From Candidatus Omnitrophota bacterium (GTDB lineage Bacteria; Omnitrophota; Gorgyraeia; 1-14-0-20-64-10): a stretch of 36,218 nt of DNA. Under the pieces are notes generated by a model. That model was not told where the DNA came from, did no database searches, and saw only the letters and a program-made list of their open reading frames with translations. A program made the position numbers and the translations under genes. Shown here one piece after another: positions 17,212-36,218 of the stretch (within the stretch, counting starts at the first letter, position 1; the number at the start of each line of letters is the position of its first letter). Where the stretch lies: contig JAHFFE010000001.1 of NCBI GenBank assembly GCA_023248155.1, forward strand, positions 276,873-313,090, given 5' to 3'.

Positions 17212-18207
17212 ATGCGCATCGGATTAACCTACGATTTAAGAACCGAATACACGCCCGAAGCCGGTGATCCGGCCGACGCGAATGCCGAATTTGATCATCC
17301 GGACACCGTCGAGGCGCTTGCCGAAGCGGTCCGCCAGCTTGGCCACGAACCGGTCCGGATTGGAAACGCGCACCAGCTGATCGAACAGTGGGACCGGTTG
17401 AATGTCGATTTCGTCTTTAACATCGCCGAAGGCAAATCGGGCCGCAACCGCGAAGCGCAAATCCCAATTCTTCTGGAACTCAAAAAAATCCCTTATGCCG
17501 GCTCTGACGGACTCACGCAGGCGCTGACGCTCGACAAATGGCTTACCAAAAAGCTGCTGGTCGCCGACGGCATTCCGACGCCGGCCGCGTTTCAGATCGA
17601 AGATCCTCAGGCACCGCTGCCGGCTAATCTGAAATTTCCGCTGATCGTAAAACCGCGGTACGAAGGATCCAGCAAGGGCCTCTCTGAAAAATCGAAGGTT
17701 TCCTCCGCCGAGGCGTTGAAAGAACAGGCCGCCTGGCTGATTGAAACCTACAAGCAGCCGGCGCTGGTCGAGCAGTTTATTCGCGGCAGTGAGTATACGG
17801 TCGCTGTCATCGGCAACAAAAATCCGGAAGTTTTCGCACCGGTTCAAATTCAGATCGACGGCAAGAAAAATCTGGGCGATCTGTTCTACACCTTTACGCG
17901 CATCCGGCAGGGCGCGCAGTACCTCTGTCCGGCCGATCTTTCTCCGGCGCTCGACCGCCAGCTGCGCGATTGGGCGCTGCGCACCTACCGCGCCGTTGAT
18001 TGTGTTGATTTCGGCCGTGTCGACTTCCGCGTCGATGAATCGGGACAGCCGTTTGTGCTGGAGATTAACCCGCTTCCGTCGCTTTCAACCGAAGATGTAT
18101 TCGCTATTTTGGCCCAACATTTATCCATTTCATTCTACGCAATGCTTGGTAAAATCATTACAACAGCGATGGAACGAAATGGATTAATGAAAGGAGTGCC
18201 GGCATGA
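17212..18207 (+). CDS. D-Ala-D-Ala ligase-like ATP-grasp enzyme 1
   Basis: This 331-residue ATP-grasp protein has the D-Ala-D-Ala ligase layout: N-terminal Rossmann-like domain, then ATP-grasp. FNIAEGKSGRNREAQIP (about 83-99) replaces the family's FNALHG segment. KPRYEGSSKGLSEKS is the ATP-binding loop, and RVDFRVDES with LEINPLPSLS carries the metal-binding acids and asparagine. The usual N-terminal GGxSxE motif of true Ddl, which holds the first D-Ala, is absent, and the NTxPGxT motif reads NPLPSLS. The substrate is probably not D-Ala-D-Ala. No ribosome binding site is evident. The stop overlaps the second ligase (ATGA). Confidence 0.82.
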   Translation: MRIGLTYDLRTEYTPEAGDPADANAEFDHPDTVEALAEAVRQLGHEPVRIGNAHQLIEQWDRLNVDFVFNIAEGKSGRNREAQIPILLELKKIPYAGSDGLTQALTLDKWLTKKLLVADGIPTPAAFQIEDPQAPLPANLKFPLIVKPRYEGSSKGLSEKSKVSSAEALKEQAAWLIETYKQPALVEQFIRGSEYTVAVIGNKNPEVFAPVQIQIDGKKNLGDLFYTFTRIRQGAQYLCPADLSPALDRQLRDWALRTYRAVDCVDFGRVDFRVDESGQPFVLEINPLPSLSTEDVFAILAQHLSISFYAMLGKIITTAMERNGLMKGVPA

Positions 18208-19238
18208 AAGCAGCACTCATTCACAACCTCAAGCCGCCGGTAAAAAATCCGGGCCTGCCTGCGGATTATTATTCCGAATGCGACAGTCCGAAGACCGTGG
18301 CCGCCATTGCCGCCGCGCTGAAAAAAGCCGGCTACGATGTGCTCCTCGTGGAAGGGGACAAGAATCTGCCGCGCTGGCTCTCTGAAAATCCGATCGATTT
18401 CGCGTTCAATATTACCGAGGGGTTTATCGGCGATTCGCGTGAGGCGCGCGTGCCGGCGCTGCTGGAATTGATGGAAATTCCGTGCACCGGTTCCGGCGTG
18501 ATGACGCTGGCGCTGGCGATGGATAAAACCCGCTCGAAACAGATTTTCCGTCAGACCGGCGTCCCGACGCCGAACTACCAGTTATTTACCCGCGCCGATG
18601 AAGCGGTCGACGCATCATTAAAATATCCGCTGATCGTCAAGCCGAATGCCGAAGGGTCGGCCAAAGGAATTTCAGCCAAGAGCGTTGTGCGCGATGAAGC
18701 GGCTTTGCGCGAACAGGTGCGCCAGATGCTGGAGACTTACAAGCAGGAAGCGCTGGTTGAAGAATACATCGAAGGCCTTGAATTGACCGTCGGGATTCTG
18801 GGTGATCAGCCGCTGCCGATTCTCGAAGTCGATTTCAGCGGATGCGGCGATTCCGGAGAATATTTTTATTCGTGGCGCATGAAAGAATTCCAGGGCAATC
18901 AGCAGATGCATCTGGATCCAAAATTTTTCTGTCCGGCGCGTTTGTCCGACCAGGCTACGCGCGCGGTTCAGGCTGTCGCCGTAAAAGCGGCCAATGCATT
19001 GGGCGCGCGCGATATTTCGCGCGTCGATATCCGGCTCAGCAGCGATGGGATTCCGTATGTGCTGGAGATTAATGCGCTGCCGGGTCTCGATCCGGAAGAG
19101 TCGAATTTTCCGATCATCGCGCGGGCTGCAGGAATTTCGTATGAAACGCTGATCCAGCGGCTGGCGCAGATGGCGCTGGCGCGGGCTGCAAATGAACTCT
19201 CGGAAATCACCCTTAAGGAGGAGAAGCTTGGACGATAG
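18204..19238 (+). CDS. D-Ala-D-Ala ligase-like ATP-grasp enzyme 2
   Basis: This 344-residue ATP-grasp ligase is a diverged paralogue of the gene before it: FNITEGFIGDSREARVPALLE matches the same segment of enzyme 1 (split: FNITEGFIGDSREARVP, then ALLE). It has GSGVMTLALAMDKTRSK, the ATP loop KPNAEGSAKGISAKS, and RVDIRLSSDG with LEINALPGLDPEESNFP. As in enzyme 1, the GGxSxE first-substrate motif is missing. The active-site end reads NALPGLDPEE, so the two enzymes probably differ in substrate. GGAGTG at 18194-18199 precedes the ATG. The 3' end overlaps the lysine aminomutase start by about 11 bases, so the three form one transcription unit. Confidence 0.82.
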   Translation: MKAALIHNLKPPVKNPGLPADYYSECDSPKTVAAIAAALKKAGYDVLLVEGDKNLPRWLSENPIDFAFNITEGFIGDSREARVPALLELMEIPCTGSGVMTLALAMDKTRSKQIFRQTGVPTPNYQLFTRADEAVDASLKYPLIVKPNAEGSAKGISAKSVVRDEAALREQVRQMLETYKQEALVEEYIEGLELTVGILGDQPLPILEVDFSGCGDSGEYFYSWRMKEFQGNQQMHLDPKFFCPARLSDQATRAVQAVAVKAANALGARDISRVDIRLSSDGIPYVLEINALPGLDPEESNFPIIARAAGISYETLIQRLAQMALARAANELSEITLKEEKLGR

Positions 19239-20412
19239 TTATCGTCATGTATCACTTTGGAAAGATGTTTCGTCGGAAGATTGGGAAGACTGGCATTGGC
19301 AGCTGCGTAACCGCATCTACACGCTCGATCAGCTGAAGCAGGTCATTGAGTTAACGCCCGAAGAAGAAGAAGGCGTGGCCAAGCGGGACGGCCGGCTGGT
19401 GATGGCCATTCCGCCGTACTGGGCCGCGTTGATGGATCCGAAAGATCCGAACTGCCCGATCCGCAAGCAGGCGGTTCCGGTTTCCGGAGAGTTTAATATC
19501 GCCGAGCATGACATGAAAGATCCGTGCGGCGAAGATTCCGACATGCCGGTTCCGGGGCTGGTGCACCGTTATCCGGACCGCGTGCTTTTCTTGGTGACCG
19601 AACAGTGCGCGATGTACTGCCGGCACTGCACGCGCCGCCGGCTCGTGGGCGTCAACCACGGGCTGATGAACAACCATGAGAAAACGTTCGCCTATCTGCG
19701 CGCGCATACGGAAGTCCGCGACGTGCTGATCTCGGGCGGAGATCCGCTGATGATGACCGACGCGAAACTCGCGCAGGTGCTTTCGAAACTGCGTGAAATT
19801 CCGCACATCGAGTTCATCCGCATCGGGTCGCGCACGCCGGTGACGATGCCGCAGCGCGTGACGCCTGAATTTTGCGAAGTGGTCAAACAGTACAAGCCGA
19901 TCTGGATGAGTCTGCATTTCTGCCACCCGAAAGAAGTCACGCCGCGCCTGAAAAAGGCGATGGATATGCTTTCGGAAAGCGGCGTCCCGCTGGGTTCCCA
20001 GACGGTGCTGCTGCGCGGCGTCAACGACGATCCGGCCACCATGAAGAAACTGATGCACGAACTGTTGAAGGTGCGCGTGCGCCCGTACTATATTTATCAG
20101 TGCGATATGGCGCAAGGCATCACGCATTTCCGCACCTCGGTCGAGACCGGCATCCGCATCATCGAATCGCTGCGCGGCCATACGACCGGCTACGCGGTGC
20201 CGACCTATGTGATCGACGGGCCGGGCGGCGGCGGCAAGATTCCGGTCAACCCGAATTATGTGGTCTCCGTCAAAGACGGCGAGGTCACGCTGCGTAACTT
20301 TGAGGGCAAGACCTACATTTACTACGAACCGGGAACGGAAAAAGCCGGCGCGGCAGTTGGCGCTTCGTCCAACGGCAACGGGTTTTCCTCGATTCCCGAT
20401 TATGTTCCATAA
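19228..20412 (+). CDS. kamA: Lysine 2,3-aminomutase (radical SAM, PLP)
   Basis: KamA converts L-lysine to L-beta-lysine using SAM, a [4Fe-4S] cluster and PLP. The 394-residue protein follows clostridial KamA closely: LWKDVSSEDWEDWHWQLRNR at the start, HRYPDRVLFLVTEQCAMYC next, and the cluster motif Cys127, Cys131, Cys134. The PLP lysine is in PGGGGK (Lys337). The aspartates that bind the lysine side chain are both present: Asp293 in YQCDMAQG and Asp330 in VIDGPGG. This points to lysine and not glutamate as substrate. The start is TTG at 19228 behind AAGGAGGAG (19215-19223); an ATG at 19192 is possible but adds unrelated residues. No beta-lysine acetyltransferase (ablB) lies nearby. Confidence 0.9.
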   Translation: MDDSYRHVSLWKDVSSEDWEDWHWQLRNRIYTLDQLKQVIELTPEEEEGVAKRDGRLVMAIPPYWAALMDPKDPNCPIRKQAVPVSGEFNIAEHDMKDPCGEDSDMPVPGLVHRYPDRVLFLVTEQCAMYCRHCTRRRLVGVNHGLMNNHEKTFAYLRAHTEVRDVLISGGDPLMMTDAKLAQVLSKLREIPHIEFIRIGSRTPVTMPQRVTPEFCEVVKQYKPIWMSLHFCHPKEVTPRLKKAMDMLSESGVPLGSQTVLLRGVNDDPATMKKLMHELLKVRVRPYYIYQCDMAQGITHFRTSVETGIRIIESLRGHTTGYAVPTYVIDGPGGGGKIPVNPNYVVSVKDGEVTLRNFEGKTYIYYEPGTEKAGAAVGASSNGNGFSSIPDYVP

Positions 20413-33524: not shown

Positions 33525-36218
33525 ATGGTGAAAAGGGATTTTTATTTTTGGCGCTTTTTAAGCGGTTTTCTGGTTTTGACAATATGTCTTAACCTGGCAA
33601 CCCCCGCTTTTGCGCTGCGCCCCCAGGCAGTTCCCGAGACTCTGCGCGGCGCGTCCAGCCTGCAGGAAGCCGTTCAGGCGGCTGGAGCGCCTGCCGGAAT
33701 GGAAGAGCGATGGGCTTCCATCGGACAATCGTTGAACTTGATTCAAGATGCGGGCCTTCATTCGGAGACAGAAACGGTGTTGCGCGCGGCATTGGCCGGG
33801 CAATCCCGGTTTGGCGTTTCTGGAACAGTTCCCGCCTCTGTTAAAACCGCGCTGACCCAATTTTCAAACGACCCCGCCCAACAGCGTTTGCAGGGAGTGC
33901 AGGCGATGATCGAGTGGCTGGCCTATCGTTGGGCACGCGAAAAAGAATCGTCCGACGGCGTCTATCAAGATACTTTTGCGCATTACCTGCAAACAGTCGT
34001 TGTCCCTGAGCAGGCCGATCGCCTGATTCACTATGCGCGCCAGATGGGAATTCCGGTTTATGCTTACCCCAGTAATTTCACGGCCCGCCGGGCCGGCATC
34101 ATTTTGCCGCCGTACGCGGCTCGTTCCGAACAAGATGAAGGAATTGGCGATTTGGCCGTTCTGGATCAGGTGGTTGAGTGGGCGCATCACCATGGACTCC
34201 AGCAAATCTATCTGATGCCGATCTATGAAATTGATTGGGTGGATCCCTCCCCTTATTTGACCGCGAGCCAATTTGGGGCCAATGTTATTTCTATCCGTCT
34301 TAAGAATGTTCCTGAAGCGCAACGATCCAAGCGGGTCCAGTTGGAACTGGGACGCTATGGTCCGACTATCGAGCGGCTGCGCAGGGAAGCCAAGGTTGAT
34401 TATCCGACCGTTTTGGATATGAAATTTTCCGTATTGCGCGCCGCCCACGGATTTTTTATCGATCAAGTGTATGTTACCGACGCCAACGGCAATTTGGACG
34501 AGGAGGCCATTCGACGGAAGTGGGCTGAGCGGGGTGAACCCCAGAGCGCCGATTGGGCCATTGCCCGGGCGCGGGCGTTCGAGCAGTTTCGCCGCGAGCA
34601 CGGTTATTGGCTGCAAATCTATGCGGACTTCCGGTCGGTTGCCAATACATTTCATGTGGGCTGGAAAGATTTTCCGGGAGAATTAAGAGGCCGCGAAGCG
34701 AACGCGATGAAAATCTGGAGAAAACATACGGCCCTCGATATTTCTTTTTTTGAGTATGTCCAGTTTTTGTTTGAAGAACAGTGGAAACCGATTCGCGATA
34801 AAGCGCACCGGTACGGCATTCGTTTGATGGGTGATATGCCGGGCGGCGTCGACGGCGACGCATTCTGGGCGTTTCAGAATGCGTTTGATACCAGCGGAAC
34901 GATGGGTGCGGCTGCCGACCGGTATTCGGTCGTTGGGCAGGACTGGGGCGGACCGACCTACGATTGGAACCGCCAGCGCGCGGCCGGATTTCCGCTGCAT
35001 ATGATGCGGATTTCCCGGTTGACCGAGTTGTTTGATGATGTCCGCGGTGATTACTGGGTTGGGTATGGCCGTTATTTCTGGATTCCCGTCGAATATGCTC
35101 CTGAGAATTTTAAAAATGAGCCAGGTGCTTTACGCGCGTGGGTCCAGCAAGTTTGGCGAAAGAATTTTGACGGGCAGCCATTCCCGCTGTCGAGCGAATC
35201 GTTGGCGGAATTGCATTCCGTTCTGGCGAAAATGTGGAATAAAAAATATGGCGGCGAGCAGTTCCCGCTGGTTGCCATTTCGTCGCGCACCGAATTTGAA
35301 AGACGAATCAACGAAACGGTTCAATCCATTGAGGAAGCGGCCCAACAATCCCAGGATGACCGGGAAATAAGAAAAGCGGCGGCCGCTCGTAAAAGCGCCG
35401 AAGAAGCAATCGCGCAGCAGCGGCATACCTGGGCGCCGGATGAGCCGCGCTATCAGACCCCCGCTTTTTTTCTCACCGATGGGACCTCTGCCAATTTGAC
35501 CGATAAAGATCGGCAAATCTGGATTTTAACGATCCTGAAATTTCTCGCGGCGGAATACCGCCCCGGACCCGGGCATGATCTGATGCAGGGTGTATTGCGC
35601 TGGGTAATGTATGAACGGCTGGGCCAGCTTTCTCCGGAAGATTTCGGGGACGGGTTTCCGGATGTGGACCGGCTTCGCCAGGAATTGGGTTTCCCGCGCG
35701 TACGGCCGCTTTTGTTTGGATTGAGCGGCTGGGGTCCTTATTGGGATACACGCAATACAGGGCGGCAAAGTTTTTTTAATGATGGCCGGCAATACCAATA
35801 TCATTCCAATACCGATACCTACTCGACCACGCATGACGGGCCCACCTTAAAGGGAGAAATCCTGGATTTAATTCAAGGTGATCCAAAAACACGTCGACAA
35901 CCCGACCCCGATCGCGTTCGGTGGTTAGTTGAGAAACTTCGTGCGGAAGGAATACCGGTTGATTGGAATCCCGGACTTTCTGCCGAGCGGCAGGCCGAGG
36001 CGATTTTCCAGGCGCTGATGACCAAATCGGCCCGCAGTAATGGAAAACGCGCGCTTTGGATGTACCAGGATCTTTGGGGAGGGTTGGGGAATGATTTCCG
36101 CAGTACTCCGCCCGGAGACGCGCTGGGAGAAAAATGGAGAGACCGGCCTCCTGCCGAATTAACGATGGAAGCGTTGGAGGCCAATCAGGCTCCCTTGGCC
36201 CAGCGTGCCAACGAATTG
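33525..36218 (+). CDS. Secreted, divergent GH77 (4-alpha-glucanotransferase-like) protein, partial at 3' end
   Basis: The frame stays open from ATG 33525 to the window end, 898 codons. A signal peptide (basic start, hydrophobic 11-29) ends at TPAFA before LRPQAV. After about 170 unfamiliar residues comes GIILPPYAARSEQDEGIGDL, then SPYLTASQFGANVISIRL and GIRLMGDMPGGVDGDAFWA, which follow amylomaltase MalQ. The three acidic catalytic positions seem kept: Asp509 (VRGDYW), Glu705 (SPEDFG) and Asp771 (TTHDGPT). However, RIDHFRG is altered to VRGDYWVG, and a charged insertion of about 150 residues lies between the first two. Export is unusual for GH77. The gene continues beyond the window, so the domains after residue 898 are unknown. 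Confidence 0.65.
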   Translation, partial: MVKRDFYFWRFLSGFLVLTICLNLATPAFALRPQAVPETLRGASSLQEAVQAAGAPAGMEERWASIGQSLNLIQDAGLHSETETVLRAALAGQSRFGVSGTVPASVKTALTQFSNDPAQQRLQGVQAMIEWLAYRWAREKESSDGVYQDTFAHYLQTVVVPEQADRLIHYARQMGIPVYAYPSNFTARRAGIILPPYAARSEQDEGIGDLAVLDQVVEWAHHHGLQQIYLMPIYEIDWVDPSPYLTASQFGANVISIRLKNVPEAQRSKRVQLELGRYGPTIERLRREAKVDYPTVLDMKFSVLRAAHGFFIDQVYVTDANGNLDEEAIRRKWAERGEPQSADWAIARARAFEQFRREHGYWLQIYADFRSVANTFHVGWKDFPGELRGREANAMKIWRKHTALDISFFEYVQFLFEEQWKPIRDKAHRYGIRLMGDMPGGVDGDAFWAFQNAFDTSGTMGAAADRYSVVGQDWGGPTYDWNRQRAAGFPLHMMRISRLTELFDDVRGDYWVGYGRYFWIPVEYAPENFKNEPGALRAWVQQVWRKNFDGQPFPLSSESLAELHSVLAKMWNKKYGGEQFPLVAISSRTEFERRINETVQSIEEAAQQSQDDREIRKAAAARKSAEEAIAQQRHTWAPDEPRYQTPAFFLTDGTSANLTDKDRQIWILTILKFLAAEYRPGPGHDLMQGVLRWVMYERLGQLSPEDFGDGFPDVDRLRQELGFPRVRPLLFGLSGWGPYWDTRNTGRQSFFNDGRQYQYHSNTDTYSTTHDGPTLKGEILDLIQGDPKTRRQPDPDRVRWLVEKLRAEGIPVDWNPGLSAERQAEAIFQALMTKSARSNGKRALWMYQDLWGGLGNDFRSTPPGDALGEKWRDRPPAELTMEALEANQAPLAQRANEL

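Follow-up and report, generated by a model that had tools for sequence, protein, structure and literature searches.

The two enzyme families closest to the protein described here, GH77 (MalQ/D-enzyme, 4-alpha-glucanotransferases) and GT5 (GlgA, glycogen/starch synthases), are cytosolic as a rule. GT5 enzymes moreover require a nucleotide sugar, which is not expected outside the cytoplasm. Secreted polyproteins, whose modules are separated by recurring short borders, are known from viruses and eukaryotes. For the phylum Omnitrophota, one study describes giant ORFs of more than 20 kb, some of which encode transmembrane or adhesion domains (PMC10066038).

We analyzed a window of 36,218 nucleotides from an Omnitrophota genome, which ends within an ORF that joins both enzyme types. 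Its first half shares with MalQ and D-enzyme (PF02446) the fold, the D/E/D catalytic residues, and the RxD and THD motifs, but differs in its predicted export, its lack of Cys, an insertion of 150 residues, the fusion to a GT5-like domain, and a score below the NCBIfam malQ cut-off. The second half resembles GlgA (PF08323 with PF00534) in its GT-B landmarks and in a PF08323 score above cut-off, but is likewise predicted to be exported, contains large insertions, and has other residues in place of the KxGGL lysine. As in viral and eukaryotic secreted polyproteins, modules are joined by recurring short and possibly cuttable borders, whereas here the proteins are those of a bacterial cell and carry other enzyme modules. 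Like the giant ORFs of Omnitrophota, the ORF encodes a very long, largely uncharacterized protein; a signal peptide, an LR leader, and a GxEE tag are not reported for those ORFs in the available part of the study (PMC10066038).

On balance, we lean towards the view that this ORF is the front of a Sec-exported, Cys-free modular protein belonging to a class of at least 39 members, termed LR/GxEE, in which the tags are recognized and which acts on glucan outside the cytoplasm. This view draws on features read from sequence: the fusion, the intact GH77 catalytic residues and fold, the absence of Cys, the common leader, and the tags at module borders. The features within the window are as follows.

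33525..36218, + strand: 5' part of the ORF, 898 of 2,436 aa, with an ATG start and open at the window end.
33525..33614, + strand: predicted Sec-type signal peptide, residues 1-30, cleavage predicted between AFA and LRPQA (from sequence, orthologues, and Cys count).
33615..33623, + strand: LR(P) motif at the predicted mature start, residues 31-33 (from the LR frequency in exported GxEE proteins).
33624..33884, + strand: low-complexity leader/linker, residues 34-120, mostly of low confidence in the AF2 model.
33696..33707, + strand: GMEE tag, residues 58-61, preceded by Ala (from orthologue alignment and motif survey).
33885..34082, + strand: helical segment before the barrel, residues ~121-186 (AF2 model; partly conserved in orthologues).
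34104..36152, + strand: GH77 (4-alpha-glucanotransferase/amylomaltase) domain, residues 194-876 (Pfam PF02446, E=8.1e-62; fold match 1fp8).
35049..35051, + strand: Asp509, predicted nucleophile, invariant in 17 GH77 proteins.
35088..35564, + strand: region of the insertion between nucleophile and acid/base, residues ~522-680 (from spacing comparison).
35637..35639, + strand: Glu705, predicted acid/base, PEDFG aligned with AEDLG, invariant in 17 GH77 proteins.
35835..35837, + strand: Asp771, predicted third catalytic acid, in STTHDG, invariant in 17 GH77 proteins.

Elsewhere in the window, two tandem ORFs resembling D-Ala-D-Ala ligases of the ATP-grasp type (331 and 344 aa) overlap an ORF resembling lysine 2,3-aminomutase (406 aa) at 17212-20412. 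These names come from reading the sequences, and the genes could form a beta-lysine ligation pathway. An Rfam search of the window gave no match.

The signal peptide has a positively charged start and a hydrophobic core ahead of the cleavage site, and both the core and the A-x-A-L-R pattern are common to the protein and its orthologues; here and throughout the class, signal peptides were judged by hydropathy and A-x-A. The only Cys of the protein is C21, inside the signal peptide, and the 2,415 residues that follow it contain none, compared with seven in the 497 aa of the cytosolic GH77 enzyme encoded by the same genome. This contrast provides independent evidence for export. The clear signal peptide before LRPQA, on which the original prediction of an exported GH77-like protein was built, is borne out. 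Export and modularity of the protein are well supported, and we regard its predicted export as very probable.

GH77 is the only confident Pfam domain of the ORF within the window (210 bits against a gathering score of 25). The malQ equivalog of NCBIfam (TIGR00217) misses its cut-off (143 against 205.65 bits), a threshold that the genome's ordinary, cytosolic GH77 also fails to reach (168). D509, E705, and D771 are kept in all 17 aligned GH77 proteins. An AF2 model built from 17 sequences (mean pLDDT 76) was matched by Foldseek to the Thermus amylomaltase 1fp8 with a TM of 0.83, which corresponds to the amylomaltase (beta/alpha)8 fold. A model that fails to unite the three residues, named beforehand as the result that would speak against the prediction, therefore did not arise; the residues lie at or just past three barrel strands, as placed by the DSSP string of the model and not by distances. 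The insertion of about 150 residues proposed between the first two catalytic positions was accepted because Asp509 and Glu705 are 196 residues apart, compared with 46-47 in ordinary GH77 proteins (n=13). It enlarges stepwise, from ordinary GH77 to the cytosolic enzyme of the same genome (spacing 91), the two exported orthologues (136 and 149), and finally the protein studied here. The altered nucleophile motif VRGDYWVG is real, but it is private to the species, and the orthologues have RxDHF. A new activity arising from this change, as had been suggested, was rejected as a weak claim, since the catalytic residues are intact and the orthologues lack the change.

In a tree, the exported GH77 proteins form a clade (support 0.93), and the genome's own cytosolic GH77 joins this clade with a support of 1.0, as its nearest relative among the sampled GH77s. 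This grouping points to a duplication followed by fusion, and the relationship would fit a course of duplication, export, and Cys loss. The branch of the protein is long and its VRGDYW motif unusual, and we count both against our preferred reading. Enzymatic activity of the GH77 module is nevertheless what we would expect, with reasonable though not high confidence.

The window ends at a scaffold gap of 10 N, beyond which the reading frame runs on to 2,436 aa. The original prediction had called for the 3' end of the ORF, which was obtained in this way and was found to contain a GT5 domain.

C20:313091-317704 of the same genome (L004:8092-12705), + strand: rest of the ORF, after the 10-N gap.
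Beyond the window, within this ORF: linker with GQEE tags at residues 1230 and 1374, GT5-like domain at ~1528-2153, GAEE at 2287, and a C-terminal part of ~150 aa.

AATTG stands on both flanks of the gap, and the residues flanking it correspond to the C-terminal helix found in the orthologues and in the cytosolic GH77. In another genus of Candidatus Omnitrophota, an orthologue (JACOVG010000012.1, L031:3204-8387) contains GH77 and GT5 in the same order in a gapless frame of 1,738 aa, and a fragment from a third genus covers the junction of GH77 and linker. A scan of the genome contigs based on an alignment recovered two Omnitrophota relatives and ordinary GH77 proteins, and a single-sequence scan of the contigs with the protein gave no match.

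The second half of the ORF matches PF08323 and PF00534, of the glycogen/starch synthase type, with 72.2 bits for PF08323 against a gathering score of 22.7, and it is the only PF08323 match in its genome. Its best NCBIfam family is glgA (TIGR02095), the cut-off of which is missed (89.9 against 328.45 bits). The substrate lysine of KxGGL is replaced by N or S (SSNTGGMG here and TSSTGGLG in the orthologue, compared with KSGGLG in starch synthase I). This replacement, together with the nucleotide-sugar requirement of GT5 enzymes, is counted against our preferred reading, and activity of the GT5 module appears possible rather than probable. The protein might instead be an ordinary secreted or periplasmic maltodextrin enzyme, whose GT5-like half is a degenerate, glucan-binding relic. 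The intact GH77 residues, the missing lysine, and the lack of any GlgC equivalog above cut-off in the genome (a phosphorylase match is present) would agree with this explanation. We consider it somewhat unlikely, as the other GT-B landmarks (TGG, HVIH, PNG, ARxxxxKG, and ExFGL..E) are retained in both orthologues and 38 sister proteins are left unexplained.

These sister proteins have in common with the protein a signal peptide and a mature start near LR[P/A/V]. The roughly 170 residues before the enzyme, described in the original prediction as unrecognized, fall into two parts: about 110 are leader and mostly low-confidence linker (pLDDT below 50 at residues 17-41 and 54-120), which includes the GMEE tag at 58-61, while ~121-186 are predicted to be helical and are partly conserved. 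Residues 34-120 are mostly missing in orthologues. A57, G58, E60, and E61 are invariant across three orthologues, within a stretch of pLDDT below 50. GxEE tags occur in the protein at 58, 1230, 1374, and 2287, and the tag at 1230 is preceded by Gly. Three tags of the orthologue from genome G001 align with those at 58, 1374, and 2287 (the last by its position near the C-terminus), and the orthologue lacks the module that ends at 1374. At residues ~1200-1374, two similar stretches of the form SWGPDxPPFxxxR ... GQEE follow each other, each closed by a tag, which would suggest the duplication of a tagged module.

A survey of secreted proteins beginning with LRPxA, proposed in the original prediction, exposed a class of exported modular proteins spread across the genome, namely more large ORFs that have this leader and carry GxEE as a repeated tetrapeptide. 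A short DNA pattern for LRPxxA remained at or below control and was uninformative. In stretches around pattern matches, the genome contains 41 GxEE ORFs of 523-4,740 aa, some of them cut by stretch ends. Those with a signal-like core number 39 and comprise 67,788 aa, or 10.7% of the 1.9-Mb genome; at least one of them (C36:38429) is truncated and lacks a real signal peptide, and the class count, being drawn from these stretches, is a lower bound (at least 39). Among 48 exported GxEE proteins from this genome and G001, LR follows the hydrophobic core within 35 aa in 44, against a background of 25%, and GxEE occurs within 110 residues in 45 of the 48 with a signal-like core. Cys makes up 0.027% of the 41 tagged ORFs (71,002 aa) and 0.948% of 282 other ORFs of the genome, 0.117 against 0.90% in G001, and 0.097 against 0.975% in three further genera pooled. 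Since the tagged proteins were picked by tag count, tag enrichment is circular in this set, which does not apply to the signal peptide, LR, or Cys depletion. The class features recur in the genera of G001, G003, G007, and G008. The protein itself shows the leader, the tags, and the Cys depletion, with LRP after AFA, [AST]G[LQMA]EE between modules, and C21 as its only Cys.

Several members lie close together in the genome. Consecutive runs of four to six giant LR/GxEE ORFs, possibly operons, are found at C20:337274-362276, C23:9573-40131, and C25:15002-58126. The cytosolic GH77 gene (L005:8364-9854) adjoins a gene for a GxEE protein of 2,171 aa with a signal peptide (L005:10515-17027), whose modules are ARMT1-like, NAGPA, and HATPase.

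The recurring tag of the exported class has the form [A/S/T]-G-[L/Q/M]-E-E. In 199 of 204 G[LQM]EE sites, A, S, T, or G precedes the G, a position that had been left free in the search. A DNA pattern for [SA]G[LQ]EE was found 82 times in the genome, compared with three times for the reversed control; most genera of the family are strongly enriched, with corresponding counts of 117/6, 73/12, 51/17, 51/17, and 45/13. One genome (G004) is the sole member of the family without enrichment (8 against 11 in the control), and its tag may be altered or the class lost. Enrichment is weak in the sister family f2, and the other Omnitrophota families searched show background counts. In other Omnitrophota families, GH77-like matches lie in open frames of 9,919 (L035, G017:C70) and 25,332 residues (L036, G047:C5), and no GLEE, GQEE, or GMEE tag is present in the 20-kb stretches analyzed. 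The codons of the tag vary, which indicates that constraint acts on the protein; a mobile repeat at the DNA level was rejected as its source on the same grounds.

Tags avoid Pfam domains (1 of 64 inside, 10.6 expected, p~1e-4) and mark the ends of homology. Of 93 internal ends of homology blocks, 28 fall no more than 10 aa from a tag when the tag is masked, compared with 4.7 expected, and a bias of BLAST ends was rejected as the cause, as the effect persists under masking. A block of 455 columns common to two giants spans from tag to tag. Such a short, repeated element with a conserved core and a free third position, located in linkers, might be a binding or anchoring motif of proteins that remain uncut and assemble on a scaffold at the surface or in the periplasm. 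We find this rather unlikely, because the tag behaves like a separator, standing after the leader, before the last domain, and at nearly every border. Still less probable is a tag without present function, a linker that hitch-hiked through module shuffling. Homology blocks do stop at tags, and the giants show duplication and shuffling of some modules. Against this, G-x-E-E and the small residue before it persist although x changes between L, Q, and M and codons vary, and orthologues of ~37% identity have aligned tags in spite of their diverged linkers.

We return to recognition of the tags in an exported modular protein. In its predicted order, the protein comprises the signal peptide, the LR leader, GH77, a linker with duplicated small modules, the GT5-like transferase, and a small C-terminal domain. 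It would be exported through Sec and its signal peptide cut between AFA and LRP, after which an extracytoplasmic protease or binding partner would recognize the GxEE tags. Our first choice is release of the modules by proteolysis at the tags, as in a polyprotein, and we put forward such cleavage as a tentative proposal; a binding motif, or a linker that favors recombination, would be alternatives for the tag. Outside the cytoplasm, the GH77 module would then shuffle segments of alpha-1,4-glucan, and this glucan would also be extended or modified by the GT5-like module, given a sugar donor there. Two exported GxEE proteins with signs of a metallopeptidase, L053:148-2553 and L105:7491-16628 (an HEHTH motif and a weak M48 match), are candidate processing proteases.

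The modules recognized in the class are sequence-level predictions, many from weak matches. They comprise GH77, GT5, alpha-amylase, ROK kinase, KDPG aldolase, transaldolase, NAGPA, a 2-hydroxyacid dehydrogenase NAD domain, and PP2C, HATPase, FHA, WD40, GNAT, methyltransferase, cupin, SIS, M48, and ARMT1-like modules. Eight members share a C-terminal alpha/beta domain, which mostly begins beside a tag. Its iterated profile remained limited to these eight, and no PDB entry matches its AF2 model (pLDDT 81) with confidence. The domain is not detectable in our protein, where hhalign against the C-terminus gave an E of 0.024 and a prob of 2, and we count this against our preferred reading.

The main puzzle is how the sugar donor of GT5, and the cofactors of the sister proteins, would be available outside the cytoplasm. 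The puzzle would be resolved if the proteins were delivered into another cell, but this idea is unsupported. In its full form, it holds that the giants are effectors of a host-associated or predatory cell and act in the cytoplasm of another cell, where ADP/UDP-glucose, NAD, and ATP are at hand. It would account for the cytosol-type domains of exported proteins (ROK, PP2C, FHA, HATPase, aldolases, NAD-binding, GNAT, and WD40), and one study regards Omnitrophota as probable symbionts or predators (PMC10066038). Sec signal peptides lead to the periplasm, however, and no injection apparatus is linked to the giants here, so that we give this explanation little credence. A cytosolic enzyme with a spurious signal peptide, as the usual location of GH77 and GT5 might suggest, is highly improbable given the absence of Cys outside the signal peptide and a leader common to dozens of proteins.

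No Pfam or NCBIfam family matches the LR/GxEE class as a whole, and no precedent was found in the open-access literature for an exported amylomaltase, for Omnitrophota secretion, or for bacterial polyproteins. The GH77 domain alone is a variant of a known enzyme. As far as the open-access literature goes, which is not proof, the exported LR/GxEE class is apparently undescribed.

Taken as a whole, this small genome devotes about 10% of its length to exported modular proteins with enzymes that normally need cytosolic cofactors. A far-reaching and speculative possibility, which we rate as rather unlikely, is that a large share of the exported proteome consists of true polyproteins. Dozens of Cys-free chains, exported through Sec and built of cytosol-type enzymes and signalling domains, would be cut at [AST]G[LQM]EE by a dedicated extracytoplasmic protease, to form an extracytoplasmic metabolic compartment that includes glucan synthesis and remodelling, or to supply enzymes for another cell. 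Through the common leader and the repeated border tag, the class can be searched for and put to a direct test by proteomics, and both offer a handle on poorly annotated proteins of a phylum for which genomes are almost the sole source of knowledge. Should the tag be a cleavage site, polyprotein processing would be a general strategy of a bacterial secretome.
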